DNA from: a virus
IMG/VR virus record: IMGVR_UViG_3300027963_000100
Coordinates: 1-51,789 of that record
DNA length: 51,789 nucleotides
Strand: one strand, 5' to 3'
Shown: piece by piece, positions 4,534-48,062 of the stretch
Layout of the letters: the number at the start of each line of letters is the position of its first letter
Numbering within the stretch: position 1 is the stretch's first letter
The notes under the pieces: generated by a model
Databases searched by the model: none
What the model was told of the DNA's origin: nothing
What the model saw: the letters and a program-made list of their open reading frames with translations, nothing else
Position numbers and translations under genes: made by a program

Positions 4534-5282
4534 CTGACCCGATCCAGCACCGGATTCCAAATATCAAACACCCAGCGGTCGTAACCGTGCTGTTCTAGAT
4601 ATTCAAACGGAATCCAACAGTAGCCCTGATCTCCCCAGGCAGTGCCAAAACTGTTTTTGGCCAAGAATTGCCGTTCGGGCAGTCTATAGCCCACCATGCA
4701 CATGGCATGCCCACCGCGACCCTGTTCATCGGGCTCGGGCATGGGTACCACAGGATTCTCGGCGTTTACTCGCATGAAACTGGCATAAATTTCCATGCCA
4801 AATATCACAGGACGCAGTTGACTCAAGGCGTCCACAGTGTCATCGATGGTGTCCAGTTTGCGGTAGTTGCGCAAGGATCTTGACCGGGCATCTTCAAAAC
4901 TTTCGTCACTGGGTCTCACTGCAAAGTTTTCTACATTGTACGGCCACAACGCTTCACTGCAGATGCCATGGTCTCGCACGGCCTTGATCACATCTCTGAG
5001 ATAGGCTCCGGTATCTTGATCGATGCTGTTGTCAATTGCTCGTGCATTGTAGTAAATGAACAGGCGACTCAGTTCCACAAAGTTTTCGGGTGCTTGTCTC
5101 CGAACCTGCAGCTCGTAGGCATTGGCCATGGCATTGCCGGCACAACTGCCTAGATCCAATTGACTGTCCACAGCACTGTCCCACTCTCGCAAATCCACTT
5201 TGGGTTGCGGAGTTAGATCAGATCTTTGATAGATCCAGTCCCGATCATCTCGGGGACTGGATTTTAGAAGGAACTGTCTCAC
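4530..5282 (-). CDS. Papain-like (C1A-type) cysteine protease
   Basis: The 250-residue product carries the papain-family active site in the right order. These are an oxyanion Gln plus catalytic Cys in QLDLGSCAGNAMA (Q41, C47), a catalytic His in GGHAMCMVGY (H192), and the Asn in AKNSFGTAWGDQGYCWIP (N210). No signal peptide or long propeptide is visible, so it looks like a compact mature-type cytoplasmic or virion protease. The start is GTG 5282, overlapping the stop of the upstream Cys-rich gene (GTGA). T4-type prohead proteases are serine enzymes of another fold, so this is not a gp21 equivalent. Its substrate is unknown. Its position beside leader-bearing genes makes a virion-maturation or host-attack role possible. 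Confidence 0.85.
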   Translation of the reverse strand: MRQFLLKSSPRDDRDWIYQRSDLTPQPKVDLREWDSAVDSQLDLGSCAGNAMANAYELQVRRQAPENFVELSRLFIYYNARAIDNSIDQDTGAYLRDVIKAVRDHGICSEALWPYNVENFAVRPSDESFEDARSRSLRNYRKLDTIDDTVDALSQLRPVIFGMEIYASFMRVNAENPVVPMPEPDEQGRGGHAMCMVGYRLPERQFLAKNSFGTAWGDQGYCWIPFEYLEQHGYDRWVFDIWNPVLDRVS

Positions 5283-12067: not shown

Positions 12068-12904
12068 TCAAGCCCGGAGTCCACTGCCACCTGACAGGGC
12101 CAGTTGTGTTCGGTTTCTCACACCATGTGCTCGCATGATGGCACTCACATGAATCTTCACTGTGCTCTCACTGAGACTGAGTGCTCGGGCAATTTGTTTG
12201 TTACTGAGTCCACGATTGCAAATGAGATCACACACCTGTTGTTGTCGATCAGTCAAGCAGATGTTGTGGTCTATGGGCTGTGTCACAGTGGTGCGATTGC
12301 CCGGCAAGTGATCCAAGATATGTAGGGGCCAGTAAGGCACACCTGTGGCCACGGCTGCCATGCCCGCTTGAGTTTCTTCTGCTGAAAATGTGTTGCTGCA
12401 GGGTATGATGCCAAACACTCCGGCTGCTTTCAAATCTTTCACTGTGCCCAGGCGGGTGTTGTTTTCGATCGAAACTGCAATGCGTGGCTGATGTCCGGGT
12501 GTGGCAAGTCTGGCCATGCTTTCCACCATGGATACAAATTCCGCTGCAGTGATTCCGGCCTGTTCAAACACACTCACATGCAGGCCAATGGAGTCGGGCT
12601 GCTGTTGGCCTAGAATATGGGAAAACTTCTCCCAGCATGTGGTTCTCACATAACGGAACAGCACATCACTGTGGGTCAAATATTCCATTGGCAGTGGGGT
12701 CGATACATTGTTTACATATCCCAAATGCAAGGGCCTGGGATCCTGGGCATCAGCAGTGATTGGAATAACATCACCGGCATCATGCTCGGGCTGGTACAGT
12801 TGATATGTTTTTAAATCTTCGGCAATTTTGATAGAGTTCAAGTGCAATCCTCCTGGATCTCTGTAATACTTACTAGGTACTTCGACACAAGTTGGGCCAG
12901 ACAA
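12068..12904 (-). CDS. LuxR/NarL-family transcription regulator
   Basis: The 278-residue protein ends in a clear LuxR/GerE helix-turn-helix: LTDRQQQVCDLICNRGLSNKQIARALSLSESTVKIHVSAIM, about residues 217-258. The middle (about 100-205) reads like a receiver-type alpha/beta fold without the phospho-acceptor pattern: FVSMVESMARL, PRIAVSIEN, and a DLKAAGVFGIIPC segment resembling the usual AGA.GYI.K part. This suggests a pseudo-receiver. The only start I find is TTG 12904, because an in-frame stop lies just upstream; the N-terminus is therefore uncertain. It is divergent from the nuclease/terminase region. It could control its own promoter and the nearby minus-strand genes. Confidence 0.8.
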   Translation of the reverse strand: MSGPTCVEVPSKYYRDPGGLHLNSIKIAEDLKTYQLYQPEHDAGDVIPITADAQDPRPLHLGYVNNVSTPLPMEYLTHSDVLFRYVRTTCWEKFSHILGQQQPDSIGLHVSVFEQAGITAAEFVSMVESMARLATPGHQPRIAVSIENNTRLGTVKDLKAAGVFGIIPCSNTFSAEETQAGMAAVATGVPYWPLHILDHLPGNRTTVTQPIDHNICLTDRQQQVCDLICNRGLSNKQIARALSLSESTVKIHVSAIMRAHGVRNRTQLALSGGSGLRA

Positions 12905-19970: not shown

Positions 19971-20239
19971 GCGTGGATGTTATCAGCGAAATTTGGACCG
20001 AACTCAAGCGATATGTCAATGTGGTTGATCGCGGCGACGCAGCTGAATCCATTGTGTCTATCCTGATAGATCATGACATTGATGCTGATGAAATACGCAC
20101 CTGGTTCAAAGGCGACGGCGACATCAAAACCGCCTTAAGTGATTACCTGGCTACCGATACCGATTCGAATGATATGCTAGAGGAGGACTCAGAAGAAGAC
20201 GATGATTTCAGTGAAGACGATGAGGACGACTGGGATTAA
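19967..20239 (+). CDS. Small acidic protein coupled to uvsX
   Basis: A 90-residue protein with a folded helical N-terminus (VISEIWTELKRYVNVVDRGDAA) and a highly acidic tail of Asp/Glu from about residue 65 to the end. It starts inside the uvsX stop codon (ATGA), so translation is coupled. The same kind of small acidic protein follows uvsX in marine T4-like phages as far as I recall. The acidic tail may mimic DNA or bind gp32/UvsX. No catalytic motif; the role is not established. Confidence 0.75.
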   Translation: MSVDVISEIWTELKRYVNVVDRGDAAESIVSILIDHDIDADEIRTWFKGDGDIKTALSDYLATDTDSNDMLEEDSEEDDDFSEDDEDDWD

Positions 20240-20240
20240 T

Positions 20241-21491
20241 GTGACTGATCAATATTTTCCGATAAAAACGGCCACAGCGTGTTCTTTAAAATGGACCTGG
20301 AGTACGTTGTATTTAAATTCAAACGAAACAGCATCCTGTCATCGAACGGGATTTAGTAAACTAACCCTTGAGAATTTTGATAATTTTCATAACACTGAAA
20401 AAAAGATTTCGGAAAGAGAAGCAATGCTCAAGGGCCAGTGGCCAGTGGATAGTTGTAGTTATTGTCGGAATATTGAGCTAGCTGGTGGATTCAGCGATCG
20501 CATGTTGCACTCAAAAATTCCAGGTCAAGTACCTGTTGAATTAGTGTCAAACACCACTGCAACTACGGTGACACCCACTATTCTAGAGGTATTTTTTAAA
20601 AATACGTGCAATTTGTCATGTTTGTACTGCTTGCCAGAGTTGAGTTCAAAAATTAATCAAGAAAATCAAAAATTTGGAAAGTTTGAAAAAAACAGCGTAG
20701 AATTATCGACATACACACCCCCAACTTCTGTGGATTTGTTAATAGAAAAATTTTGGGATTGGATGCAAATAAATTCTCACAATCTGAAAAGATTTAATAT
20801 ACTCGGCGGCGAACCTTTTTATCAGCAAGAATTTGATCGTTGTTTGGATTATTTTGAATCGTCAATGCACCCGGATCTTGAAATAGGAATAGTTACCAAT
20901 TTATCAATGAGCCAGGATAGACTTGAAGTCTATCTTGACCGATTTAAATCGTTACTGGCAAAAAAACAAATTAAACGCATCGATCTTACGTGTAGTATCG
21001 ATTGTCTTGGTCCAGAACAAGAATTTGTCAGGCATGGGTTAGATCTTGAACAATGGATCAAAAATTTTGAATTATTGTTGCAAAAGAAATGGTTAACGCT
21101 CAATATAAATCAAACTATTAGTTTGTTAACAATAAAAACCATGCCCGAGTTATTGCAAAAAATGATTCAATGGAGAGAGATTAAACCAATTGGACACTAT
21201 TTTTCAGAGGTTTCTCCTCACCCTAGTTATCTCATGTCTAATGTTTTAGGATCTGGGATATTTGAAGATGATTTTGAAATTATTCTCAATCTCATGCCTG
21301 TCAGTACTGAGAAAGACCAACTTGCTAAAAAATACATGCAAGGTATTGCTGATTCGATTGTGAAATCTCAAAGAAACACATCTGAAATTTTAAAATTAAA
21401 AACTTTTTTAGACGAAAAAGATCGTAGAAGAGGTACCAATTGGAGGAAAACTTTTCCCTGGTTAGAATGTGAGATAGATCATGTGGTATAG
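20241..21491 (+). CDS. Radical SAM protein with twitch/SPASM-like features
   Basis: The 416-residue protein has the radical SAM cluster motif C-x3-C-x2-C in NTCNLSCLYCLPELSSKI, which would bind a 4Fe-4S cluster and S-adenosylmethionine. It also has a following ILGGEPFYQ (GGE motif). Upstream Cys in ASCHRTGFSK and DSCSYCRNIELAGG could hold an auxiliary cluster. I favour GTG 20241, directly after the previous stop, over the ATG at 20202, which would overlap. The gene is strikingly AT-rich (20641-20700 has 15 G/C in 60, against 31 in 60 at 21541-21600) and sits between uvsX and uvsY, so it looks inserted. Substrate unknown. Confidence 0.85.
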   Translation: MTDQYFPIKTATACSLKWTWSTLYLNSNETASCHRTGFSKLTLENFDNFHNTEKKISEREAMLKGQWPVDSCSYCRNIELAGGFSDRMLHSKIPGQVPVELVSNTTATTVTPTILEVFFKNTCNLSCLYCLPELSSKINQENQKFGKFEKNSVELSTYTPPTSVDLLIEKFWDWMQINSHNLKRFNILGGEPFYQQEFDRCLDYFESSMHPDLEIGIVTNLSMSQDRLEVYLDRFKSLLAKKQIKRIDLTCSIDCLGPEQEFVRHGLDLEQWIKNFELLLQKKWLTLNINQTISLLTIKTMPELLQKMIQWREIKPIGHYFSEVSPHPSYLMSNVLGSGIFEDDFEIILNLMPVSTEKDQLAKKYMQGIADSIVKSQRNTSEILKLKTFLDEKDRRRGTNWRKTFPWLECEIDHVV

Positions 21492-22689: not shown

Positions 22690-23361
22690 ATGCTGCCGGT
22701 CTCAGTGTTTGTGGGCTACGATCCACGCGAGGCAGTGGCCTATCATGTGTGCTGCAACAGCATCATAAGACTGGCTACTGCTCCTGTGGCCATTGTGCCC
22801 TTGGCACTCAATCTCATGAGAGACTATCAAGAAACACACACTGACGGCAGCAACACCTTTGTATACAGTCGTTTTTTGGTGCCTTATCTCATGGGTTATC
22901 AGGGTCGTGCCGTATTCATTGACGGTGACATGGTGTTGCAGAGCGATATCCTGGAACTGTTTGACCTGCTGGGCAATCAACATGCTGTGGCAGTGGTCAA
23001 ACATGATTATCAAACTCGTTCGGCTGTCAAGTACTTGGGCAATGCCAATCACAACTATCCTCGCAAGAATTGGTCCAGTGTGATTGTGTGGAACTGTGAC
23101 CATGAGAAAAATCGTATGCTCACACCTGACCTGGTGCAACACAGCACTGGGTCTTATCTGCATCGCTTTGGCTGGTTGGATGATGTCAACATTGGAGAAT
23201 TGCCCCGGGAATGGAACTGGCTGCCCGACGAACTGGGTGCCAATCCTGAGGCCAAACTGCTGCATTACACCCTGGGCACACCTTGCTTTGCTGAGTATGA
23301 GTCAGTGCCTCAAGCCGATGTCTGGCATCAAGAACGCCGGCTTGCGCAGCATCCGTCATGA
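22690..23361 (+). CDS. Glycosyltransferase, GT-A fold (GT8-like)
   Basis: The 223-residue protein starts LPVSVFVGYDPREAVAYHVC and has a D-x-D metal/nucleotide-sugar motif in AVFIDGDMVLQSDI (about 74-87), followed by acceptor-side segments (RKNWSSVIVWNC, WNWLPDELG, LLHYTLGTP). The layout is that of GT8-like enzymes, which transfer a sugar from a UDP-sugar to an acceptor. Its stop overlaps the start of the next gene (ATGA). The acceptor may be a virion protein, host surface glycan or modified base; the sequence does not tell. Confidence 0.82.
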   Translation: MLPVSVFVGYDPREAVAYHVCCNSIIRLATAPVAIVPLALNLMRDYQETHTDGSNTFVYSRFLVPYLMGYQGRAVFIDGDMVLQSDILELFDLLGNQHAVAVVKHDYQTRSAVKYLGNANHNYPRKNWSSVIVWNCDHEKNRMLTPDLVQHSTGSYLHRFGWLDDVNIGELPREWNWLPDELGANPEAKLLHYTLGTPCFAEYESVPQADVWHQERRLAQHPS

Positions 23362-24308
23362 ACACTGTGGCAGTTTATCACAGATCTGTGCCCAATGATC
23401 GCAATTGGGAAAAGGTCAATCTCTTGAAACTGTTTGGTCAGGGTGTGAGAACCACTGGCGACTCAGTAGTGGATGTCAATGACTATCAAGTGGGTCATAC
23501 CGATGTGGCTGTGATTCAAGGTTGGTATACCACAACTGCCCGGCCAAGACCACATGCTGATTTGAGAAATCGAGTGATCTTGTCACAACGTCGCATGCAG
23601 CGTCGAGTGTTGGCTGTGGACAGCAACTTGTTCCTGTATGCCAACACCGACAATCCCCATCACTACTTGCGTTACAGTTTTGATGATGTGTTCCCCAGTA
23701 CTGGAGAATACTGTGATCGCCCAGTGGATCCTGACAGGTGGCGCAGCATCAGTCAACAGTTGGGCATTGAGTTACGTGACTACAGAACCCGTGGAGATCA
23801 TGTGCTGGTGTGCCTGCAGCGACAAGGAGGCTGGAGCATGGGAGATGTTGATGTCACCGCCTGGTTGACACAAACTGTTCAAACACTGGCACGATATACT
23901 GATCGGTCCATTGTGATACGCCCACATCCAGGAGACAAAAAACTTCACACCTACTTGGATCTTGTGAATCCCTTGCCCGGAGTTGAGATCTCAAACCCAA
24001 TTCGGGTGAGTCAGCATCGGGATTTGCGCCAAGATTTGATCAACTGCTGGGCTGTGGTCAACCACAATTCAAGTCCTGCTGTGGCTGCGGCTGTGGAAGG
24101 ATATCCGGTGTTTGTGACCGATCCTGATCGCAGTCAGTGCTGGGCAATTGCCAACTGGGACCTGAGCCAGATCGAATCACCCGAATTGCCGGATCGACTG
24201 AGTTGGGTGCAAGGCTTGGCCATGAGCCACTGGAATTTTCAAGAACTGGAGTCTGGTGAGTGTTGGCATCACATGCGACAGTTTGTTCGTTCCAGTAGTC
24301 AGTCTTGA
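23358..24308 (+). CDS. Glycosyltransferase-like protein, GT-B type
   Basis: A 316-residue protein with an IVIRPHPGDKK strand-loop (about 193-203) and VVNHNSSPAVAAAVEGYPVFV (about 234-254), a pattern of GT-B enzymes and capsule-synthesis proteins in which a His/Arg loop and a Gly-rich helix bind a nucleotide sugar. It is paralogous to 25770-26612, which has VVRSHPR and VVNHNSGPGIQAAL in the same order. The C-terminus (MSHWNFQELESGECWHHM) looks complete. Translation is coupled to the upstream GT by ATGA. The last 250 bases lie antisense to the end of 24058-24957. Confidence 0.7.
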   Translation: MNTVAVYHRSVPNDRNWEKVNLLKLFGQGVRTTGDSVVDVNDYQVGHTDVAVIQGWYTTTARPRPHADLRNRVILSQRRMQRRVLAVDSNLFLYANTDNPHHYLRYSFDDVFPSTGEYCDRPVDPDRWRSISQQLGIELRDYRTRGDHVLVCLQRQGGWSMGDVDVTAWLTQTVQTLARYTDRSIVIRPHPGDKKLHTYLDLVNPLPGVEISNPIRVSQHRDLRQDLINCWAVVNHNSSPAVAAAVEGYPVFVTDPDRSQCWAIANWDLSQIESPELPDRLSWVQGLAMSHWNFQELESGECWHHMRQFVRSSSQS

Positions 24309-24957
24309 CCAAGGAACTTTTGCCCCCAGTGGGATCTCGATCTTGAGCCTGGCCCATTAGATAATTGTGAATCTCCAGTCGGATCAAGGTTTGATTCATG
24401 GCATTGTCTGAAGGCAAAAACGAGTGTTGATAGGCGTCGACTAAAATTTTGGCCGCAGCAGGTTTTATGATGTAACCAGCAGTGCCTGGCATGCTGGCCT
24501 GTCGATATTCACACGCTGCAGCCTCACCTGAGGGAGATGTCAAGTAGTCTCTATACTTGGCCAGCTTTTTGTCGTGACTGGTGGCCACAATCAACACCTG
24601 ATCAAACTCCACCGGTATCAAGGGTCTGATCAGTCGGGTATCATCTTCAAACACTATAATGGGTTCTCCCAGCTCCGCACACAGTTGCCACAGTCGATAG
24701 TGGCTGTCAAAACAGCCAATCACTCCCGGTAGACTCATTTCGTATTTTTCATGGTCACTCAAGGGTCGATCTGGGCCTTTGAAGCCCCAGGCATGACAAC
24801 CTCGACCCTGAGATTCGTACTGTTGCTTGGCCACGTTGCCGTAGGAACCTTCAAACAGTTGCCAAGAAATTCCGTAGTTGGTCAACTGTTGCGCCAGCGT
24901 TTCGGCAGATCTGGCACTGCTGGCCACTTGAGAAAGATGGATAATGTAACAGTTCAT
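24058..24957 (-). CDS. Glycosyltransferase family 25-like protein with run-on C-terminus
   Basis: The start at ATG 24957 overlaps the upstream stop (ATGA), and the N-terminus is GT25-like: MNCYIIHLS, then GVIGCFDSHYRLWQLC and PIIVFEDD (about 95-102). GT25 enzymes act in lipooligosaccharide and glycan synthesis. The recognisable domain appears to end near KSSLVKTDYW, at about 24290. The remaining 77 or so residues are translated from the antisense of the 23358-24308 gene and look like non-homologous run-on, as if the original stop was lost. The total is 299 residues. Confidence 0.78.
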   Translation of the reverse strand: MNCYIIHLSQVASSARSAETLAQQLTNYGISWQLFEGSYGNVAKQQYESQGRGCHAWGFKGPDRPLSDHEKYEMSLPGVIGCFDSHYRLWQLCAELGEPIIVFEDDTRLIRPLIPVEFDQVLIVATSHDKKLAKYRDYLTSPSGEAAACEYRQASMPGTAGYIIKPAAAKILVDAYQHSFLPSDNAMNQTLIRLEIHNYLMGQAQDRDPTGGKSSLVKTDYWNEQTVACDANTHQTPVLENSSGSWPSLAPNSVDPAIRVIRSGSGPSWQLPSTDCDQDRSQTPDILPQPQPQQDLNCG

Positions 24958-25757
24958 TGCCAGTAAGATTCTCTGCGTGGTTGTATCAGGTCTTGTGCTC
25001 TGCTGCGACCCAGAGATTTTCTGGCGCCTTTGAGGTGGTCCAGCCAGGCGCCCCATGCTGAATTGATTAAGGGATGACCTTCTCCGGATATCAGTCCCTC
25101 ACTCCAGTTCAATTGCTTCAATGGCACTTGCGCTCGCACAGCATCAAACACAAAACTGTCGTGCCATTCGGCCAAGGTGAATATGCCTGATTCGGCCGAA
25201 TCATAGTAGTGCTGGAACAGCTTCAAGAATTCTTGCGTTTGGTCGCTATGTAGATTCATGGCATATAGCCCACATTCGGAATATTTGTTTTCGCGACCCA
25301 GGTAGCAGATATCGTATTGATTGGGGCACAGTGTGTCTAAATTGGCCAGAGTGATTGGACTGTGGCACACAGTGTCGGCATCCATCCAGATCAACCACTG
25401 AGCTTGAGAGTGTTGAGCAGCATGACATATGGCATATACTTTGTGGGCAAATCTCACTGCTTGCCATTTGAAACTTTTGGCATGATCTCTGCGGCGGCTT
25501 CGTTGAGGATCTTGACTCACATCACCATTGGCCCAGGGCACTGACTGCCACTGTTGTTTGAATGCCACCAATTCGGGCGATGCCTGTGCCAGGTCCAGCA
25601 CAGCCAAATTTGGTGCCGCTTCTTGAACCTCACAAGATTCGGCATAGACCACTAGATCAACCTCGCGAGGCCAGGTGTTCAAAAAGGTTTGAATCATGCG
25701 TTGACCATACAAGTTATAGCCCTGGTCGTGAAAAGTGGTAACTACACAATAGCTCAT
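24954..25757 (-). CDS. Glycosyltransferase, GT-A-like
   Basis: The 267-residue protein has an N-terminal YCVVTTFHDQGYNLYGQRM, a D-x-D motif in WLIWMDADTVCH (about 128-139), and a C-terminal HPLINSAWGAWLDHLKGARK segment typical of a phage/marine GT family as I recall it. It probably transfers a sugar from a nucleotide sugar. Its ATG abuts the divergent plus-strand gene, and a CTAAATA box lies six bases upstream, implying a nearly leaderless transcript. Its stop overlaps the GT25-like start, so both minus genes are one operon. Confidence 0.78.
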   Translation of the reverse strand: MSYCVVTTFHDQGYNLYGQRMIQTFLNTWPREVDLVVYAESCEVQEAAPNLAVLDLAQASPELVAFKQQWQSVPWANGDVSQDPQRSRRRDHAKSFKWQAVRFAHKVYAICHAAQHSQAQWLIWMDADTVCHSPITLANLDTLCPNQYDICYLGRENKYSECGLYAMNLHSDQTQEFLKLFQHYYDSAESGIFTLAEWHDSFVFDAVRAQVPLKQLNWSEGLISGEGHPLINSAWGAWLDHLKGARKSLGRSRAQDLIQPRRESYWQ

Positions 25758-25770: not shown

Positions 25771-26612
25771 TGATCAAAACCATAGCCTATTTTCCTTTGC
25801 AATGTGCCCGCAACTCCGGCGAAGTCCTGGCGGCGGTGCGCGGCAGCCTCAATCAACACGGTGTTGAGATTCAGGCCCAGAGCTGGGATTCAGATGCAGT
25901 GATCATATGGTCGGTGCTGTGGCATGGCCGCATGCTGGAAAATCGTGAAGTGTATGCGCACTATCGTGGTCTTGACCGTCCTGTGATTGTGATTGATGTG
26001 GGAACCTTGATCCGTGGTGTGACCTGGAAAGTAGCTGTGAACAACATCACTGCAGACGGACACTATGGACATGAACACAATCTAGACTGGGATCGACCCC
26101 GACGACTAGGCATTGAGTTACAAAATCAAACACTGAGACCAGAAATATTAATAGCTGCGCAACATCAACAAAGTCTACAGATGTCAAAGGTACCAGATCA
26201 AGAAGCCTGGATCACACAACAGATTGCACAAATAAGATCAACTACAGATCGACCCATTGTGGTGCGTTCTCATCCAAGATGTGCCTTGAATATCAGTCGA
26301 CTGCCATCGGGAATTGAAATACAAGCTACACACCGCCTGACCAATACCTATGACAGTTATGACATGAACGTTGACTACCATGCTGTGGTAAACCACAACA
26401 GCGGACCCGGTATCCAGGCAGCCCTGACTGGTGCTAGACCCATAGTGGATAGATCTAGTTTGGCAGCACCTGTGGGCATTGACATTGCTATCATCGAACA
26501 GCCGTATGAGGTGGATCGTGAGCAGTGGTTGGTAGAAATAACCCATACTGAATATACCATACCAGAACTGGAGGCAGGATTGTGGATTCAGCGTCTGGAA
26601 CCTTACCTTTAG
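25770..26612 (+). CDS. Glycosyltransferase-like protein, GT-B type (paralog)
   Basis: I start at GTG 25770, giving MIKTIAYFPLQCARN; GTG 25758 is an alternative, and starts further upstream would overlap the divergent gene. The 280-residue protein carries PIVVRSHPR (about 173-181) and YHAVVNHNSGPGIQAALTGARPI (about 209-231), matching the paralog at 23358-24308. An N-terminal helical region with GEVLAAVRGSLNQHGV precedes it. This is the nucleotide-sugar-binding half of GT-B or capsule-type enzymes. Part of the glycosylation island; acceptor unknown. Confidence 0.68.
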   Translation: MIKTIAYFPLQCARNSGEVLAAVRGSLNQHGVEIQAQSWDSDAVIIWSVLWHGRMLENREVYAHYRGLDRPVIVIDVGTLIRGVTWKVAVNNITADGHYGHEHNLDWDRPRRLGIELQNQTLRPEILIAAQHQQSLQMSKVPDQEAWITQQIAQIRSTTDRPIVVRSHPRCALNISRLPSGIEIQATHRLTNTYDSYDMNVDYHAVVNHNSGPGIQAALTGARPIVDRSSLAAPVGIDIAIIEQPYEVDREQWLVEITHTEYTIPELEAGLWIQRLEPYL

Positions 26613-27301
26613 ACTGTGCCTGTGTGATTGTGGGTGATGCATACTCATGGCAGTATGTAGACACTCTCCACAGCATGTTGACCCGACATCTGACCCGGCC
26701 TGTGACCTTGCATGTGTACACCGAGGAACATAGAACAGTTCCGGATCACATGGTCAAACATGTGCTGACACCATGGAGGGTAAACAAGCCCTGGTGGTAC
26801 AAAATGCAACTGTTTGATCCTGCACACCACTCAGGCCCCATGCTGTATTTTGATCTAGATGTGGTGATTGTGGATTCCATAGACTGGATTTGGCAACTGC
26901 CTCTGGATCGTTTTTGGGCAGTGCAAGACTTCAAGTATCTCTGGAGACCCACATGGCCTGGACTCAACACCAGTGTGATGTGGTGGGATACCAGTCGGTA
27001 CGAGTCACTGTGGGCAGAATTCAATAGCCAAGGTCCCGCTGCAGTGGCTGCTCGATATCCGGGTGATCAAGACTATGTGACTGCTCGACTGCCTCAATCT
27101 CAACAGGCTCGTCTAGACCACACGAGTGTGGTCAGTTGGCGCTGGCAAGCACTAGATGGTGGGTATGATCCTGCAGCTCGACAACATTGCCAACCTGGGG
27201 CCGGAACTCGTATTGACCCCGGGGTATCTGTACTGGTGTGTCACGGACACCCCAAGCCGCATCAAGTTTCGGACTCTGTGATTGTGCAACACTGGAAATG
27301 A
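26582..27301 (+). CDS. Glycosyltransferase, GT-A-like
   Basis: The 239-residue protein has a D-x-D motif in MLYFDLDVVIVDSI (about 88-101), preceded by the usual donor-binding N-terminus (CVIVGDAYSWQYVDTLHS). PGLNTSVMWWD, GDQDYVTARL and a C-terminal CHGHPKPHQV (possible metal-binding His) follow. This matches GT-A transferases of the type found next to phage and bacterial glycan loci. ATG 26582 overlaps the previous gene by 31 bases; a start near the GTG at about 26624 would remove the overlap. Likely co-transcribed with 25770-26612. Confidence 0.75.
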   Translation: MDSASGTLPLDCACVIVGDAYSWQYVDTLHSMLTRHLTRPVTLHVYTEEHRTVPDHMVKHVLTPWRVNKPWWYKMQLFDPAHHSGPMLYFDLDVVIVDSIDWIWQLPLDRFWAVQDFKYLWRPTWPGLNTSVMWWDTSRYESLWAEFNSQGPAAVAARYPGDQDYVTARLPQSQQARLDHTSVVSWRWQALDGGYDPAARQHCQPGAGTRIDPGVSVLVCHGHPKPHQVSDSVIVQHWK

Positions 27302-35698: not shown

Positions 35699-36688
35699 AT
35701 GATTGATGTGGTGAGTTTACTGCCGGGCAAACGCAAGTCAACGCCTTCGGGCTGGATCAGCTTCAATGCTGTGTGCTGTGCTCATCGTGGTCAATCACCG
35801 GACCGGCGCCAGCGTGGTGGAATCAAAATTACCGATTTAGGCTTTTCTTACCATTGCTTCAACTGCCAGTTCACAGCCAGTTTTGTTTTGGGACGACAAC
35901 TGGGTTTTCGAGCCAGACAACTGCTGACTTGGTTGGGTGTGAGTGATAGTGATATTGATCAACTGAACCTTGACAGTTTGCGGCATCGCAGCGTGTACGG
36001 CATCATTGATGATCGACAGCGTGTGGCCATGGCCATTACTGACATCAAGTTTGACGAGTGTGACGAATTCCCACCATTCAGTGAATTGGTTACTCCCGAG
36101 CATGCGGCACAGTGGCAATACTTGAGACAGCGTGGCGTTCCGGAGGATTATCCTGTGATGACTGCGATTGAAAATGACGGTGTTCACTGGACAAGACCAC
36201 AAGTGATCATTCCGTTCATGCATCATGACCAAGTGGTGGGTTGGTGTGCTAGATTTTTAGACAACCGGCAGCCCCGGTACATCAATCACTCACAACCCGG
36301 CTATGTGTTTGGCACAGATTTGCAAAGACCTGCATGGCAGCATGTGATTGTGACAGAAGGCATATTCGACGCACTCAGCATAGGTGGCTTGGCCTTGATG
36401 CACAACACTGTGGGTGATGCACAAGCTAGACTGATAAGAAGTTTGGGCCGAGAAGTCACTGTGGTACCAGATCAAGATCGAGCTGGCATGGACCTGGTGG
36501 ATCGTGCTCTAGAACTGGGCTGGGCAGTAAGTATACCTGAGTGGCCTGAGGGTTGTAAGGATGTGAATGATGCAGTGATTTGCCTGGGTCGAGTAGGCGC
36601 CTTGCTAACTATATTCCAGGCCCGAGAAACATCGCGTATAAAGATTGAAATGAAAAGGAAGCAACTTGCTAAAAGATTACTCAGTTGA
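35699..36688 (+). CDS. 61: DNA primase (gp61/DnaG-like)
   Basis: The 329-residue protein has an N-terminal zinc-binding domain (VCCAHRG and YHCFNCQF, residues about 25-60) and a Toprim-type catalytic core: VIVTEGIFDALS (about 217-228), VVPDQDRAGMDL (about 257-268), and a late acidic CKDVNDA. It synthesises RNA primers for lagging-strand replication together with the gp41 helicase, encoded immediately downstream. The ATG at 35699 follows a promoter with leaderless spacing. Its 3' end overlaps the helicase start by 23 bases. Confidence 0.87.
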   Translation: MIDVVSLLPGKRKSTPSGWISFNAVCCAHRGQSPDRRQRGGIKITDLGFSYHCFNCQFTASFVLGRQLGFRARQLLTWLGVSDSDIDQLNLDSLRHRSVYGIIDDRQRVAMAITDIKFDECDEFPPFSELVTPEHAAQWQYLRQRGVPEDYPVMTAIENDGVHWTRPQVIIPFMHHDQVVGWCARFLDNRQPRYINHSQPGYVFGTDLQRPAWQHVIVTEGIFDALSIGGLALMHNTVGDAQARLIRSLGREVTVVPDQDRAGMDLVDRALELGWAVSIPEWPEGCKDVNDAVICLGRVGALLTIFQARETSRIKIEMKRKQLAKRLLS

Positions 36689-38069
36689 TGTTCAGAAAAT
36701 TTTTCTGGAAATGATGTTGGAAGATGCCGGCAGCTATGTGCGTGTGCAGAACATCTACAATCCCGAAAACTTTGATCGCAAGCTGCGCCCTGTGGCTGAA
36801 TTTATCCAACAGCACAGTCGTGATCACAAAACCCTGCCCACAGTGGAAGTGATTTCGGCTGCCACAGGAATACAGCTGAGTCGAGTGCCGGACTTGAACG
36901 AAGGCCACTTTGAGTGGTTCATGGCAGAATTTGAAAAGTTTACTAGACGTCAAGAACTGGAACGAGCCATTCTCAAAAGTGCTGATCTCTTGGAAAAGGG
37001 CGAGTATGATCCGGTAGAAAAACTAATCAAAGATGCTGTGCAGATCAGCCTGACCCGAGACATGGGCACAGATTACTTCAGTGATCCGGCAGATCGTATT
37101 AACCGATACTTTAACTCAGGTGGCCAAGTAAGCACAGGGTGGCCACAGATGGACAAGATTCTGTACGGTGGCTTTAGCCGCGGCGAACTTAACATTTTTG
37201 CTGGTGGAAGTGGATCTGGCAAAAGTCTAGTCATGATGAACATAGCGTTGTCTTGGTTACAAGCCGGACTCAGTGGGGTGTATATCAGTTTGGAACTGAG
37301 TGAAGAATTGTGTGCGTTAAGAACTGATGCCATGTTGGCCGGGATGAGCACAAAAGAAATTCGCAAAGACATTGATCAAACTGAACTCAAAGTCAAGTTG
37401 GTGAGCAAGAAAGCCGGACAGTATCGTATCAAAGCATTGCCGGCACAAAGCAACATCAACGACATTCGCAGTTATATCAAAGAAGTGCAAGTGCAGACCG
37501 GAATCCGGGTAGACTTTGTCATGTGCGACTACTTGGACTTGTTGATGCCAGTCAGTGCCAAAGTTAGTCCCAATGACCTTTTTGTCAAGGACAAATATGT
37601 AAGTGAAGAACTGCGTAACTTGGCCAAGGAACTCAATGTGCTGTTTGTAACAGCAAGTCAGCTGAATCGGTCAGCAGTGGAAGAAGTAGAGTTTGATCAC
37701 AGTCACATTTCGGGTGGTATCAGCAAGATCAATACAGCAGACAATGTATTTGGTATTTTTACAAGTAGGGCCATGCGTGAGCGCGGTAAATATCAGATAC
37801 AGTGTATGAAATCGCGTAGTAGTACTGGGGTTGGCATGAAAATCGACCTGGACTATAATGTCGAAACCATGCGTATTACAGATCCAGGCGAAGAAGCCGG
37901 GCCAGTTAATTCTTTTGCCAAGGGTAATTTTCTTGATAGTATCAAGGCAAAAAGCACAATGATCAATCGAGAAACTGTAAATACTAACACTAGCGAAATT
38001 GGCCGAGTCACTGCCGACGTGCAAAGTGCCAAACTAAAACAGTTACTGGGACAGATAAAACAATCATGA
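36666..38069 (+). CDS. 41: Replicative helicase, DnaB/gp41-like
   Basis: The start is TTG 36666 with AAAAGGAA just upstream, within the primase gene. The 467-residue protein has an N-terminal helical domain and a RecA-type core with Walker A FAGGSGSGKSLVMMN (about 179-193), Walker B-type VDFVMCDYLDLL (about 280-291), DnaB-type SQLNRSA and an HISGG segment. The hexamer unwinds DNA 5' to 3' at the fork and pairs with the primase. Its stop overlaps the next start (ATGA), coupling it to an unrelated amidinotransferase. Confidence 0.92.
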   Translation: MLKDYSVDVQKIFLEMMLEDAGSYVRVQNIYNPENFDRKLRPVAEFIQQHSRDHKTLPTVEVISAATGIQLSRVPDLNEGHFEWFMAEFEKFTRRQELERAILKSADLLEKGEYDPVEKLIKDAVQISLTRDMGTDYFSDPADRINRYFNSGGQVSTGWPQMDKILYGGFSRGELNIFAGGSGSGKSLVMMNIALSWLQAGLSGVYISLELSEELCALRTDAMLAGMSTKEIRKDIDQTELKVKLVSKKAGQYRIKALPAQSNINDIRSYIKEVQVQTGIRVDFVMCDYLDLLMPVSAKVSPNDLFVKDKYVSEELRNLAKELNVLFVTASQLNRSAVEEVEFDHSHISGGISKINTADNVFGIFTSRAMRERGKYQIQCMKSRSSTGVGMKIDLDYNVETMRITDPGEEAGPVNSFAKGNFLDSIKAKSTMINRETVNTNTSEIGRVTADVQSAKLKQLLGQIKQS

Positions 38070-39085
38070 TTAGTAGTCATACCGGATTCCAACCTCTTAA
38101 AGAAGTGTGGCTAGGAGATTGTTATCCTGCTGAGTGGTATTGTGATTTTGATAACCAAGCACAGGACATATTTGAATCAATCACCGAGCTTACTAAACAG
38201 GATCTTAAAAAATTCGAACAAAAATTACAAGAATTGGGCATTATAGTCCGCCGGCCTGCCTTTGAAGATAAATCTAAGTTTGTTGACTCAGACGGAAATC
38301 TTATTAAGCCTCCTATAACTCCCAGAGACTGGGCAATGACATTAGGAGATACTTTATATATTATTCCGCAGTATGAAAATTCTGTTACAGGATTCGAGGC
38401 AACTATAGATTTATATAAAAAACAAGATCAAAAAGTGGTAGTGTTAGATAGATCTAACCCGGATCCTATGTGTTTTGTTCCTTTTCCTAGTACGGTAAGA
38501 GTTGGGCAAGATATTTTTCTTGACTGCGGGAAAGATTCTTCTGGCTATGGCTATTTTGAACAGGTTGTAAAAGATTTGTCAAAAACATATCGTGTTCATG
38601 TCAGTCACACCAATGAGCACAATGATGGCATATTTTGTCCGGTTAAACCTAAAACTATTTTCAGTACGCATTATCGAACAAGTTATGAAACGACTTTTCC
38701 TGGCTGGAATGTATTTTATTTACATGATACTACCGAACAAAGACAAAATAATGGTTTCAATGGCAAATGGTGGATGCCTGGAAAAGACTATCAGATCTAT
38801 AATGATTCTATAATTAAATATGCTCAAGACTGGATTGGCAATAGTATGGAAACAGTTTTTGAAGTCAATATGTTAGTGGTAGATGAACACAATATCTTTT
38901 GTATTGCCGAAGACGATCGTGCTTGTCGACAGCTTGAAAGTATGGGCGTAATACCACATATCATTGATTTTAGATGTCGTGGATTTTGGGACGGTGGATT
39001 GCATTGTCTTACAACAGATATACACAGAGAAGGCGTATGCCTGGACTACTGGCCCGGCCGCGGCCCTAATGGAATTTACAAATGA
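38066..39085 (+). CDS. Amidinotransferase-family protein
   Basis: The 339-residue protein fits the glycine/inosamine amidinotransferase fold. It has RDWAMTLGDTLYI near the front, a middle HTNEHNDGIF (acid/His part) and the catalytic-Cys segment FWDGGLHCLTTDIHREG near the C-terminus (Cys about residue 314). Such enzymes move an amidino group from arginine to an amine, as in creatine or streptomycin-type synthesis. The gene is clearly more AT-rich than gp41, whose stop it overlaps. It leads a three-gene cassette with 38066-39085, 39082-39855 and 39852-40856. Acceptor unknown. Confidence 0.85.
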   Translation: MISSHTGFQPLKEVWLGDCYPAEWYCDFDNQAQDIFESITELTKQDLKKFEQKLQELGIIVRRPAFEDKSKFVDSDGNLIKPPITPRDWAMTLGDTLYIIPQYENSVTGFEATIDLYKKQDQKVVVLDRSNPDPMCFVPFPSTVRVGQDIFLDCGKDSSGYGYFEQVVKDLSKTYRVHVSHTNEHNDGIFCPVKPKTIFSTHYRTSYETTFPGWNVFYLHDTTEQRQNNGFNGKWWMPGKDYQIYNDSIIKYAQDWIGNSMETVFEVNMLVVDEHNIFCIAEDDRACRQLESMGVIPHIIDFRCRGFWDGGLHCLTTDIHREGVCLDYWPGRGPNGIYK

Positions 39086-39855
39086 TTTTTATAGATTACC
39101 CACCCGGTGGGCTTGGTAATTTTTTAGCGCAAATTTTAACGAACAATGGCGAGTTGTTTGATAAACATCTATCTTTTCATCGGAACCCAAAAAAAGAATA
39201 TTCTCGATTGATTTTAGAATCGCCTGACCAATTTTGTCAACAGATAAAATTATTTGTACCCGAACATGAAATAACAGTGACGCATTCGTTTGGCAACATC
39301 AATGAACTACGAACTCGCTGGCCATCTGCCACAATAATACAGGTTGTTGCTAGACAAGAAATTGCAATACTGCTTAACAATATGTGGAGGAAAGCGGCAT
39401 CAGACAATCCTGATTCTGAGACAAAATTATCAAACAGATTAATACAGCATTATAAGAAAGATACTGCTGCGGTAAGGAGAGAAAATTATGCGCTTTCTTA
39501 TTTGTATTTTAAAGAACATGCTGGATATCATAATACTCTGCACCCGTTGACTGATATAGAGATTAATTTTGATAATTTATATCAAGGACCTGATCTCATG
39601 CAGATAGAGTTATCAAAAATTAAAAAAGATGTTGACATAAAAAAAATCAATGAAGTTTTTCAATTAACGCAACAATCAATAATACAAAAAAATAATCTAT
39701 ATAAAGAGTTAGTTGCAGGATCTATATCTTGGGAACAAAGTAAACATCATTTTGACACAATCGATCACGGATTAATATGTGGTATACTTCAAGAAAAACA
39801 CAATAAAGAATTTTTCCTACCAAATCAAGATCATTTTGAGCTGATCATTCAATGA
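39082..39855 (+). CDS. Hypothetical protein, possibly sulfotransferase-like
   Basis: The 257-residue, AT-rich gene begins MIFIDYPPGGLGNFLAQIL, a Gly-rich strand-loop-helix near the N-terminus like that of sulfotransferase-type P-loop proteins. An HSFGNINELRTRWPSATII segment follows. The remainder is helical and charged. The match is weak, so sulfotransferase is only a suggestion. It is coupled to both neighbours by ATGA overlaps and shares their base composition, which implies joint acquisition. Confidence 0.6.
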   Translation: MIFIDYPPGGLGNFLAQILTNNGELFDKHLSFHRNPKKEYSRLILESPDQFCQQIKLFVPEHEITVTHSFGNINELRTRWPSATIIQVVARQEIAILLNNMWRKAASDNPDSETKLSNRLIQHYKKDTAAVRRENYALSYLYFKEHAGYHNTLHPLTDIEINFDNLYQGPDLMQIELSKIKKDVDIKKINEVFQLTQQSIIQKNNLYKELVAGSISWEQSKHHFDTIDHGLICGILQEKHNKEFFLPNQDHFELIIQ

Positions 39856-40856
39856 TAGATTTTAAAAATATCAGAGATGTGCATCTTGAAATCTCTTCAT
39901 TATGCAATGCCAGTTGTCCTTGGTGCCCTAGAACATTTTGGGGATATCCGTTCAATGGAGGATATCCTGAAGTAAATCTTTCTCTTGAGAATGCTAAAAA
40001 ACTATTTCAGCCGGATTTTTTGAATCAGCTGACTAGCATTCGTATCAATGGAAATTTTGGAGACATAGTGATGAATCCCGAAGGTCCTGACATCGTTGAA
40101 TACTTTTTTAATGTGAATCCTACTTTGAATATTTCTGTCAGCACCAACGGTGGCGCCAGGGACAGCAAATTTTGGACTCAGTTGGCAAAAACTCCTGTTA
40201 CAGCGTTGTTTTGTATCGACGGATTAGAAGATACTCATCACTTGTATAGACAAAACACAGTGTGGTCCATAGTGATTCGCAATGCTCAAACATTTATTGC
40301 AGCTGGAGGTAGAGCTGTTTGGAAAATGATTGAATTTGATCACAACCGTCATCAACGTGAGCAATGTCGTGAACTGAGTAAAACTCTTGGGTTTGAAAGT
40401 TTCCAATTGATCAATGATGGTCGAAATACTGCCCCGGTATTTGATCGCCACGGTAATTTGACTCATGTGTTGGGCAATTATACCGGAGAACAGGATTTCA
40501 AAGTGCTATTTCATAAAAGGAAAACAGATGAAGTATTGCTTGAAGATATTACTATTGATCGACACCCAAAAAAACATATATTTTGTAAAACCAAGACTTT
40601 AAAAAGCATATACATCAGTGCCACAGGTGATGTAAGTCCGTGCTGTTGGACAGGATTTTATCCCAAAACATATGGCGCTGGCTATTATCATCAAGCTGCT
40701 AATGCACAATTAATTCCTCTCATATCAAAAAATAATGCACTGGAATATACCTTAGAAGAATGCATTGAGTGGTTTAACTGTGTTGAACAATCGTGGTCTA
40801 TTGACAGTTATGACCAAGGTAGACTAGTCATCTGCGATGATGTTTGTGGTAAATAA
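39852..40856 (+). CDS. Radical SAM protein with SPASM-like C-terminus
   Basis: The 334-residue protein has C-x3-C-x2-C in SSLCNASCPWCPRTFWG (residues about 17-33), a RINGNFGDIVMNPE strand and a late Cys cluster (HIFCKTKTL, ISATGDVSPCCWTGF), as in SPASM proteins with an auxiliary Fe-S cluster. Such enzymes often modify peptides. The start overlaps the previous stop (ATGA). The cassette amidinotransferase / P-loop-like / radical SAM resembles a small natural-product or peptide-modification unit. No precursor peptide is obvious. Confidence 0.87.
   Translation: MIDFKNIRDVHLEISSLCNASCPWCPRTFWGYPFNGGYPEVNLSLENAKKLFQPDFLNQLTSIRINGNFGDIVMNPEGPDIVEYFFNVNPTLNISVSTNGGARDSKFWTQLAKTPVTALFCIDGLEDTHHLYRQNTVWSIVIRNAQTFIAAGGRAVWKMIEFDHNRHQREQCRELSKTLGFESFQLINDGRNTAPVFDRHGNLTHVLGNYTGEQDFKVLFHKRKTDEVLLEDITIDRHPKKHIFCKTKTLKSIYISATGDVSPCCWTGFYPKTYGAGYYHQAANAQLIPLISKNNALEYTLEECIEWFNCVEQSWSIDSYDQGRLVICDDVCGK
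40849..40855 (+). promoter_or_regulatory. Late-type promoter box (GTAAATA)
   Basis: GTAAATA overlaps the radical SAM stop codon and lies 20 bases before the ATG at 40876, with an AAGGG RBS between. Confidence 0.5.
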
Positions 40857-40875: not shown

Positions 40876-41124
40876 ATGCAGAAAAAAACTCGTAGCCTAC
40901 TTGAAGAACTTGACGCCATGTATGTGGAGCGCGATCAGCGCCATGTGGTAGAAAGTCGTGCCGCCAATGTGATTGCCAGTGCTATTCGCTTGCTGGAACA
41001 CATTGATGCTGCATACACACCTGAACAAGCTGAAAATTTGTCGAGAAAACTGTTAAACGCCATTCGCTTGCGGGACCCTGCCAAATTTGCTCGCACTGTG
41101 AGAAAAACTGATGCAGGGATTTGA
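40876..41124 (+). CDS. Small helical conserved-type protein
   Basis: I start at ATG 40876 (MQKKTRSLLEELDAMYVERD) because AAGGG precedes it; an upstream ATG lies inside the radical SAM gene. The 82-residue protein is nearly all helix (VVESRAANVIASAIRLLEHI) and ends with a basic stretch. I recall similar small proteins in marine T4-like phages. Its 3' end overlaps the next gene by 14 bases. Function unknown. Confidence 0.7.
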   Translation: MQKKTRSLLEELDAMYVERDQRHVVESRAANVIASAIRLLEHIDAAYTPEQAENLSRKLLNAIRLRDPAKFARTVRKTDAGI

Positions 41125-46034: not shown

Positions 46035-46424
46035 ATGGCTTACAGTAAGGCTGTGGTGGACCACTATGAAAATCCCCGCAATGTGGGCAGCTTTGGCAAG
46101 GACGAAGCGGATGTGGGCACGGGCATGGTGGGAGCACCGGCATGCGGTGACGTGATGAAATTGCAAATCAAGGTGGATGAACATGGTGTTATTAGAGATG
46201 CTCGTTTCAAGACATATGGCTGCGGTTCAGCCATTGCTAGTTCAAGTTTGGTTACAGAAATGGTCAAGGGCATGCACATTGATGCTGCTCAAAATATCAA
46301 AAACAGCGAGATCGCGGCAGAGCTTGCACTCCCACCTGTGAAGATTCACTGCAGCATCTTGGCCGAGGATGCAATCCGAGCTGCAATCGCCGACTACCGA
46401 ACCAAGCATGATACAGCTAACTGA
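46035..46424 (+). CDS. iscU: Fe-S cluster assembly scaffold IscU
   Basis: The 129-residue protein is a complete IscU. It has Cys37 in GAPACGDVM, with the adjacent Asp39, Cys63 in TYGCGSAIASS and Cys106 in VKIHCSILAEDAI, the same numbering as in E. coli. It also has the LPPVK motif (99-103) that HscA-type chaperones recognise. IscU builds 2Fe-2S and 4Fe-4S clusters from iron and cysteine-derived sulfur; no IscS is encoded nearby, so the host desulfurase must supply sulfur. It has its own promoter and overlaps iscA by 17 bases. Confidence 0.96.
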   Translation: MAYSKAVVDHYENPRNVGSFGKDEADVGTGMVGAPACGDVMKLQIKVDEHGVIRDARFKTYGCGSAIASSSLVTEMVKGMHIDAAQNIKNSEIAAELALPPVKIHCSILAEDAIRAAIADYRTKHDTAN

Positions 46425-46749
46425 TACAGCTAGAAAAAAAGTTCAAAAACTCCTGGCACAACGTGGCGGTGCTGGCATCAGGCTAGGTGTCAAAACCACC
46501 GGTTGCTCGGGCTTGGCTTATGTGTTAGAATATGTGGATCGCTATGAATATGACGAATCCACCATCAACTATGCTCAACCCGGAGATCACAACACCCCTG
46601 GCTTTTGTGTGTTGGTGGACAAGCGCAATGAACCCTTGCTGGCCAACATGACTGTGGACTATGTGCGTCAAGGGCTAAATGAAGGTTTTGAATTCAGCAA
46701 TCCCAATGAACGAGATCGCTGCGGCTGCGGTGAGAGTTTTAGAGTATGA
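46408..46749 (+). CDS. iscA: A-type Fe-S carrier IscA
   Basis: I start at ATG 46408 (MIQLTDTARKKVQKLL), because the earlier in-frame codons fall inside iscU. The 113-residue protein has the three A-type cysteines, C33 in TTGCSGLAYVLEY and C105/C107 in RCGCGESF. IscA takes clusters from IscU and delivers them to 4Fe-4S targets such as radical SAM enzymes. Its stop overlaps the next start (ATGA), a radical SAM gene, which makes a direct supply line plausible. Confidence 0.95.
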   Translation: MIQLTDTARKKVQKLLAQRGGAGIRLGVKTTGCSGLAYVLEYVDRYEYDESTINYAQPGDHNTPGFCVLVDKRNEPLLANMTVDYVRQGLNEGFEFSNPNERDRCGCGESFRV

Positions 46750-48062
46750 AAATCCCAGTTACAAATCTGTTGCCGGCTGACATCTCACATGCTGACAGAA
46801 TTACCTGGATTAAAAATAATCAACATGTTTGTTTAAATCCTTTTCAAACGTATTATTATCAATATGAAGCTAAATCTGGCAAAGCTGTACTGAACAATAA
46901 TTTTTGCTGTAGTGTATATTCCAATTCAGATGTTGATGAGGTAAAAAATAATATATTTGCCGGAAGTCTTAGTAAACAATGTCAGGTGTGTTGGAATTTA
47001 GAATCTCAGACAGGAACATCCGAAAGAACACTGTCGTTGGCAACAGTTCCGAGTGATGTTTTAAACAAATTTATCGAGACCGGAGAGTCTGACAGTTATC
47101 ATTACAGAATAAAGTTTTCAAATCTATGTAATTTGGCATGTAGATCATGTGCTCCGACATTTAGCAGCAAATACGCACAAACCTACAAGTTGAATGTGCC
47201 ACAAGAATTGTATCAAGATATTGGTTACGATAACAGTGTTTGGGATAGCATAACCAGTAGCATCACCAATGCTTGTGAAACATATCAGTCAGTTACTGTT
47301 ATGATATTGGGCGGCGAATCATTAATTCAACCCGGAGCCATCAAACTCATTGACTGGTTGACTGATACCAAGTTGCCTGTGGCATTAAGTATCACAACCA
47401 ATCTAACAAAATTGGATACCAAGGTAGTGGAAAGATTGCGCCACCTTTCGTATATTCATCTTGCACTGAGCATTGACAGCGTAAATCACAACTACGAATA
47501 TGTTCGATGGCCGGCAAAGTTTAGTGATATTGAAAAAAATCTCTCTGTCATATTTAAGTATACTAATGCATCCTTGATCGTACAACCAGTCTGGAGCTTG
47601 AACAACATATTTTATATCATTGATTTTTTAGATTGGTGGTATCAGTGGTTTAACACAAATCGAGAAATACCAATTAAACCTGTTGTCATGCATCATCCGC
47701 CCAGCATAACCATTCAAAATTTACCAACAAGATATCGTGCACAATTGTTGACAATAGTTGATCATGCTCTCAAGCATGATATTTTTAAAAGCCAGATTCA
47801 ATTGCCATTTTATCGCTATCTATTGGAACTAACTGATTTTTTACAAACTGATCATGTGATACATGATTTATTTGATCAGTTTTTATATGAAACTGCAGTT
47901 CAGGACAGAGCAACTGGCAGCAACTTTGCTCAGGGAAATCAAAACTTTTATAAGATATTAACAGAATCAGATCAAACATTATTTAAACAACATCCCAACA
48001 TAAAATTATTACCCAGACAATCAAAAAACTTTTATTCTTTACATGTACAATCCCAAATTTGA
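46746..48062 (+). CDS. Radical SAM protein coupled to iscU-iscA
   Basis: The 438-residue protein carries C-x3-C-x2-C in FSNLCNLACRSCAPTFSS, and a GGESLI motif (VMILGGESLI) follows. Extra cysteines upstream (NFCCSVYSN, QCQVCWNLES) could bind an auxiliary cluster (twitch type). It starts inside the iscA stop (ATGA), overlaps the nuclease gene at its 3' end and is much more AT-rich than both neighbours. It is a third radical SAM gene in this window. Substrate unknown; the context argues that its Fe-S cluster is supplied by the upstream proteins. Confidence 0.88.
   Translation: MKIPVTNLLPADISHADRITWIKNNQHVCLNPFQTYYYQYEAKSGKAVLNNNFCCSVYSNSDVDEVKNNIFAGSLSKQCQVCWNLESQTGTSERTLSLATVPSDVLNKFIETGESDSYHYRIKFSNLCNLACRSCAPTFSSKYAQTYKLNVPQELYQDIGYDNSVWDSITSSITNACETYQSVTVMILGGESLIQPGAIKLIDWLTDTKLPVALSITTNLTKLDTKVVERLRHLSYIHLALSIDSVNHNYEYVRWPAKFSDIEKNLSVIFKYTNASLIVQPVWSLNNIFYIIDFLDWWYQWFNTNREIPIKPVVMHHPPSITIQNLPTRYRAQLLTIVDHALKHDIFKSQIQLPFYRYLLELTDFLQTDHVIHDLFDQFLYETAVQDRATGSNFAQGNQNFYKILTESDQTLFKQHPNIKLLPRQSKNFYSLHVQSQI

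Follow-up and report, generated by a model that had tools for sequence, protein, structure and literature searches.

The Campylobacter phages CP220 and CPt10 carry an interchangeable module of five radical S-adenosylmethionine (SAM) genes and a putative glycine amidinotransferase gene, for which Timms et al. 2010 suggested a metabolic benefit (PMC2853527); the combination of an amidinotransferase with radical SAM enzymes in phages is thus already known. Here, we describe a related but differently organised locus in a 51,789-nucleotide stretch of viral DNA (IMG/VR record IMGVR_UViG_3300027963_000100, positions 1 to 51,789; hereafter "the window"), where three overlapping genes directly follow the replicative helicase gene and encode an arginine-type amidinotransferase, a likely sulfotransferase-fold protein, and a radical SAM enzyme. 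We favour, at about an even chance of being right, the reading that the three are accessory enzymes of sugar or glycan tailoring, housed in a variable slot with the helicase gene on one side and a small virion gene on the other. The nearest cultured relatives of the window helicase are those of the PA5oct-group jumbo phages (48.8% identity), and on this sequence evidence the source is a large phage related to that group, an uncultured bacterial virus; the 51.8-kb record is probably a fragment.

Like the window, CP220 and CPt10 belong to T4-like phages and have an interchangeable region in which a glycine-amidinotransferase-like gene and radical SAM genes stand together, but theirs is one block of 10 to 12 genes including five radical SAM genes (PMC2853527). 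By contrast, the window has a helicase-adjacent slot with a single gene each for an amidinotransferase, a sulfotransferase-fold protein and a radical SAM enzyme, and further radical SAM and sugar genes elsewhere. Our models recover the CP220 homologues in one block (amidinotransferase at 5e-19; radical SAM at 1e-21, 7e-17, and 5e-15), beside which lie two proteins annotated with nucleotide-diphospho-sugar transferase domains. Cyanophage S-SCSM2R likewise has an amidinotransferase of the same family (1e-58 with our amidinotransferase model), which adjoins kdsA/kdsB and 2-oxoglutarate (2OG)-oxygenase genes; it differs from the window in gene order and neighbours, and the stretch examined holds no match to the models of either the window-type or the c13 radical SAM family. 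Beyond the CP220/CPt10 work, none of the papers listed by a search of one literature library describes, judging by its listing, an amidinotransferase, a radical SAM enzyme, and a sulfotransferase together in a phage.

Three overlapping genes behind the replicative helicase

A first-pass annotation of the sequence had described three AT-rich genes with successive ATGA overlaps after the replicative helicase, and the coordinates, base composition, and overlaps all agree with it (Table 1). The start codon of each gene lies within an ATGA that overlaps the preceding stop codon, the first of them overlapping the helicase stop at 38069. The GC contents of genes 1 to 3 are 37.6%, 32.6%, and 38.0% with GC at third codon positions (GC3) of 0.25 to 0.31, compared to 44.8% and 0.47 for the helicase and 51.5% and 0.51 for the gene at 41111. 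An origin as chance open reading frames is excluded because the genes have relatives at 61% to 92% identity with low ratios of nonsynonymous to synonymous substitution (dN/dS), which for pairs with finite dS are 0.07 for gene 1 (1 of 3 pairs), 0.17 for gene 2 (2 of 2), and 0.06 to 0.20 for gene 3 (4 of 4). All three genes are under purifying selection. We identified their products from family profiles, a fold model of relatives, and cysteine conservation, and the enzyme classes originally named for genes 1 and 3 proved right by profiles and conserved residues.

Table 1. Features of the window discussed in the text, with the evidence for each assignment.
Feature	Coordinates	Strand	Length (aa)	Evidence
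Second radical SAM gene (c13/"twitch" family), AT-rich	20202..21491	+		c13 model 5e-63; between uvsX-like and uvsY-like genes
Glycosyltransferase family 8-like	22690..23361	+		Pfam Glyco_transf_8 1e-7
Glycosyltransferase family 25-like	24058..25056	-		Pfam Glyco_transf_25 3.7e-17
Possible glycosyltransferase family 2 (weak)	24954..25757	-		Pfam Glycos_transf_2 4.8e-4, below cut-off
Phage glycosyltransferase-like	26582..27301	+		PHROG_1962 5e-15
DnaB-like replicative helicase, upstream hotspot border	36666..38069	+		PHROG_19 1e-73; Pfam DnaB_C 5.5e-21
Arginine-type amidinotransferase (gene 1)	38066..39085	+	339	Family profile; conserved Asp/His/Cys
Likely sulfotransferase-fold protein (gene 2, "MID"), distant c20 family member	39082..39855	+	257	Profile comparison; c20 model
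Radical SAM enzyme with SPASM-like C-terminus (gene 3)	39852..40856	+	334	Cys conservation; PHROG_21308 4e-17
Small virion structural protein c3, downstream hotspot border	40876..41124	+		PHROG_11854 8e-15; start taken at ATG 40876
NifU-like Fe-S assembly protein	46035..46424	+		PHROG_8429 6e-39
A-type Fe-S carrier, overlaps next radical SAM gene	46369..46749	+		Pfam Fe-S_biosyn 9e-16
Third radical SAM gene (c13/"twitch" family), AT-rich	46746..48062	+		Pfam Radical_SAM 3e-8, above cut-off; c13 model 4e-54

Gene 1 has no naming match in a Pfam search alone and as a single sequence matches amidinotransferases at 4e-6, but a profile of 30 relatives finds the solved structures of L-arginine:glycine amidinotransferase (AGAT; 3e-27), SxtG (6e-24), HsvA (1e-22), and StrB1 (8e-20). 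Its H185, D187, and C314 are present in 65 of 65 relatives and D149 in 62 of 65; from alignment to AGAT, we take H185, C314, and D149 to be the catalytic residues. Gene 1 thereby shares both the profile match and the conserved Asp/His/Cys with AGAT and the StrB1-type inosamine-phosphate amidinotransferase, though the similarity over the whole length is only distant. Its profile places it among the arginine-type amidinotransferases (AGAT/StrB1 group), and transfer of an amidino group to an amine is predicted. Elsewhere in phages, amidinotransferases recur in a cassette with DUF6875-like, ATE_C-like (aminoacyl-tRNA transferase fold), and DUF6614 genes (loci L016, L043, L050, L058, L063, L080, and others), which looks like a separate small-molecule pathway.

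For gene 2, searches of Pfam and PHROGs were blank or at chance level and sequence searches of the PDB returned chance-level matches only. An earlier scan had found no relatives beyond the first 3, and the set was enlarged by four further MID-type genes (two distinct sequences), drawn from helicase-bait loci only. The structure predicted by AlphaFold for gene 2 itself, together with 3 close sequences, reached a mean confidence (pLDDT) of 37.6. The N-terminus of gene 2 resembles c20, a phage family that often follows an amidinotransferase or helicase gene, and when a profile built from 5 MID-type sequences was compared to the c20 profile, the match had a probability of 90 (E 1.6e-6 over 215 columns). 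The structure predicted for the c20 family has a pLDDT of 95.5, and among the matches listed in a structural comparison 50 of 50 were sulfotransferases, with Z-scores of 7.6 to 8.9 in a middling range that is common with such searches. Through its profile-based link to c20, gene 2 likely has a sulfotransferase fold, which fits the original description of the middle protein as "P-loop-like", and its activity is putative.

Sulfotransferases that use 3'-phosphoadenosine 5'-phosphosulfate (PAPS) are generally known to have a basic residue, Lys or Arg, in the 5'-phosphosulfate loop. The c20 relatives of gene 2 share the fold of PAPS sulfotransferases such as SULT and StaL/Teg12, but they differ in a first loop without Lys/Arg (0 of 48 c20-type loops matched by pattern) and in the absence of any Pfam sulfotransferase match among 36 c20 members; a sequence search of c20 against the PDB gave nothing useful. 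None of the 5 MID-type loops matched the pattern, and inspection by eye found no Lys or Arg between the start of PPG and FL. A Methylophilaceae contig (L255, from a metagenome-assembled genome), which looks like a T4-like phage with a tail-sheath-like gene, has both a radical SAM gene of the window type and a gene with a "GHCGHFL" motif resembling the start of the gene 2 family.

Gene 3 has the CX3CX2C motif (C18, C22, C25) in 54 of 56 relatives, with the alignment gapped in the other 2, and a C-terminal set of cysteines of which C245, C264, C265, C328, and C332 occur in 56 of 56 and C304 in 54 of 56. Judged by these residues, gene 3 encodes a radical SAM enzyme with six near-invariant C-terminal cysteines as expected for an auxiliary cluster. 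The SPASM label that it had been given agrees with the six cysteines, and the Pfam SPASM score is 17.3 bits, under the cut-off of 21.5; the Radical_SAM match is sub-threshold as well. Comparison with solved structures gave no clear match (best E 0.006, to MoaA). Cellular relatives of gene 3 were found at 14 loci, and in the Bdellovibrionales loci L244 and L246 they lie, as seen by eye, near apparent c13-type radical SAM and glycosyltransferase genes.

A variable hotspot between helicase and virion gene

We compared this locus to those found in four scans, each limited to 80 loci, out of 458 amidinotransferase, 125 radical SAM, 201 c20, and at least 597 helicase relatives. The 80 loci found with the helicase as bait include 14 without a complete interval, leaving 66 complete helicase-to-c3 intervals; a second, bait-biased set of helicase loci was deduplicated from 136 to 80. 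The slot is empty in 23 of the 66 intervals and occupied by a radical SAM gene in 34 (11 window-type, 23 of the c13 or "twitch" family, none with both); gene-2-type genes are found in 6 intervals and amidinotransferases in 3. The content is a single gene in 10 intervals with only a twitch gene and in 8 with only a window-type radical SAM gene. SGNH hydrolase-, short-chain dehydrogenase/reductase (SDR)-, and 2OG-oxygenase-like genes also occupy the slot, as judged from motifs and visual inspection, to which Pfam added little support. In PA5oct, the c3 homologue comes directly after the helicase, and this phage therefore shows the empty site. The interval between helicase and virion gene is a variable hotspot and not a fixed three-gene operon, with radical SAM genes of the gene 3 type as a stable occupant in many relatives.

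Within this variability, three pairings recur, namely amidinotransferase with gene-2 type, amidinotransferase with radical SAM, and gene-2 type with radical SAM. An amidinotransferase stands alongside any radical SAM gene in 1 of the 66 intervals, and in the bait-biased set 51 loci have the window-type radical SAM gene and 11 an amidinotransferase. Gene-2-type genes accompany the amidinotransferase in 6 of these 11 loci. Of the 6 intervals with a gene-2-type gene, 5 have a radical SAM gene beside it, although such genes are present in 34 of the 66 intervals in any case. A lack of co-occurrence in other viruses had been named as refuting the cassette; this was not observed, as the family pairs recur elsewhere, but the triple was not seen again as a unit among the loci examined. 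We also considered whether the two radical SAM families exclude each other at this slot (hypergeometric P 0.005) but do not claim this, because the loci are phylogenetically related and one interval of the bait-biased set combines a c13 gene with a window-type gene.

Sugar-building gene clusters in related phages

A close relative of the window (helicase 89% identical) is represented by a 317-kb contig with an amidinotransferase inside a module of ca. 20 kb. This module includes an NDP-sugar epimerase (1.6e-46), a DegT/StrS aminotransferase (1.4e-54), and a carbamoyltransferase (1.4e-16), together with six c13-family radical SAM genes and SGNH-like and 2OG-oxygenase-like genes. Similarly, on contig L155 a radical SAM gene of the window type (60% identical) is accompanied by amidinotransferases in a sugar-type cluster, which also has genes for an epimerase, a DegT aminotransferase, a PIG-L deacetylase, a carbamoyltransferase, and an FkbM methyltransferase. 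Other large phage modules (L262-L263 and L346-L347) have five to six c13-family radical SAM genes beside carbamoyltransferase, DegT aminotransferase, epimerase, and amidinotransferase genes.

Interpretation of the cassette

Our preference for sugar or glycan tailoring follows from the presence of the same enzyme families inside the sugar-building gene clusters of related viruses, and the glycosyltransferase-like genes at 22.7 to 27.3 kb of the window count in its favour. So do the sugar genes beside the homologous amidinotransferases of CP220 and S-SCSM2R, the Fe-S assembly genes next to the third radical SAM gene of the window, and the kinds of genes that occupy the slot in relatives. The amidinotransferase would use arginine as amidino donor for the amine of an amino-sugar-type acceptor, the radical SAM enzyme may oxidise, epimerise, or deoxygenate a sugar, and the sulfotransferase-fold protein could add sulfate or a similar group. 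The resulting compound would then join a glycan made by the phage's own glycosyltransferases and may alter the surface of the infected cell or the virion. A bolder version, which we regard as possible but rather improbable, is that the slot is dedicated to glycan tailoring and continually reloaded with either of the two radical SAM families plus amidinotransferase, sulfotransferase-fold, hydrolase, or oxygenase genes, the window version making a sugar, undescribed from a virus, that bears a guanidino group, a radical modification, and a further substitution. Several observations weigh against sugar tailoring by the cassette. The exact triple was seen in the window only among the 80 bait-biased helicase loci and 66 intervals; an amidinotransferase meets a window-type radical SAM gene in 0 of the 66 intervals and 2 of the 80 loci. 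The sugar genes of the window lie 11 to 15 kb from the cassette and do not adjoin it, and Glyco_transf_2 and Glyco_transf_25, tried as glycan markers, were patchy and weaker than hoped, with matches above cut-off in just 3 of 26 related contigs and 5 of 16, respectively. The dominant context of phage amidinotransferases (107, deduplicated to 77) is the company of DUF6875/ATE_C/DUF6614-type genes (32 of 77), which is not obviously glycan-related, and sulfate transfer by gene 2 is unproven because its sulfotransferase-fold loop lacks Lys/Arg. Since the triple does not recur, glycan markers are patchy, and many amidinotransferases keep non-glycan company, we only infer a three-step pathway, including its substrate, the order of its steps, action on one molecule, and its purpose; of the metabolite modification pathway proposed at first, the evidence supports a more specific version, namely the tailoring of sugars or glycans, and a dedicated three-step pathway stays hypothetical.

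The rarity of the triple and the slot being empty or holding a different single gene in most relatives would also be expected if the three were unrelated single-gene morons in a common insertion hotspot, each with its own host or virion target and no pathway between them. We consider this a minority possibility, though one to be taken seriously, as the recurring pairs, albeit partly from the bait-biased set, and the reunion of amidinotransferase, radical SAM, SGNH-like, and 2OG-like families in the single glycan module of the 317-kb contig speak against it. The glycine amidinotransferase and natural-product enzymes among the closest solved relatives of gene 1, together with the 32 of 77 context, could instead point to a guanidino small molecule or amino-acid derivative serving as metabolite or signal, but the cassette has no DUF6614- or ATE_C-type partner, and the amidinotransferase subgroup at the hotspot keeps other company, i.e., sulfotransferase-fold and radical SAM genes, so that we hold this reading to be improbable. 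Radical SAM and P-loop enzymes are known from phage DNA hypermodification, and the cassette is coupled to a gene of DNA replication; however, the same slot accepts many unrelated genes, and the hydroxymethyl-based form of base modification, raised early on, is disfavoured by the thymidylate synthase/hydroxymethylase family being found in 0 of 7 records (the window and 6 related ones) and 1 of 26, which is weak evidence as the records may be fragments. This absence is further softened by chemistries that do without thymidylate synthase-type enzymes, such as 7-deazaguanines and carboxymethylcytosine, and we rate base hypermodification as a slim prospect. Least probable, and very unlikely in our view, is the modification of a ribosomally synthesised peptide (RiPP) by the gene 3 enzyme with its SPASM-like C-terminus. 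Peptides are frequent substrates of SPASM enzymes, and gene 3 has weak profile matches to anaerobic sulfatase maturase and YydG, but there is no room for a local precursor: the helicase-to-radical SAM junction is a 4-base overlap in 28 of 36 pairs, the gap to c3 is 16 to 50 nt in 25 of 26 (with the c3 start approximated as its last 83 codons), and c3 is a structural gene that is also present where the radical SAM gene is missing. The early remark that no precursor gene can be found thus holds beside the radical SAM gene, and the peptide modification suggested with it is disfavoured, while variants with a distant precursor or a whole protein as substrate stay conceivable.

Other genes of the window

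Besides gene 3, the window carries two more radical SAM genes, ca. 17 kb upstream and 6 kb downstream of the cassette (Table 1). The upstream one occupies a second replication/recombination-gene slot, between the uvsX-like region and the uvsY-like gene, that is used like the helicase slot. Downstream, the NifU-like, A-type carrier, and radical SAM genes follow each other in successive overlaps (46035-48062) as a phage Fe-S supply module for radical enzymes, with the NifU-like protein as their likely helper; the A-type carrier family is present in 15 of 16 related records tested. The window also encodes a papain-family cysteine protease (4530-5282, - strand; Pfam 1.5e-10) and a LuxR-type helix-turn-helix regulator (12068-12904, - strand; GerE 6e-14).

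Implications for phage biology

Phages carry scattered "metabolic" radical SAM and amidinotransferase genes without an agreed purpose. That such genes are linked, in several groups of phages, to modules for amino sugars and glycosyltransferases, and also to a swappable slot behind the helicase, turns them into a testable chemical hypothesis, namely that phages may make guanidino or otherwise tailored sugars that are displayed on infected cells or virions. If true, this would be relevant to superinfection exclusion and to the ways in which phages disguise surfaces.

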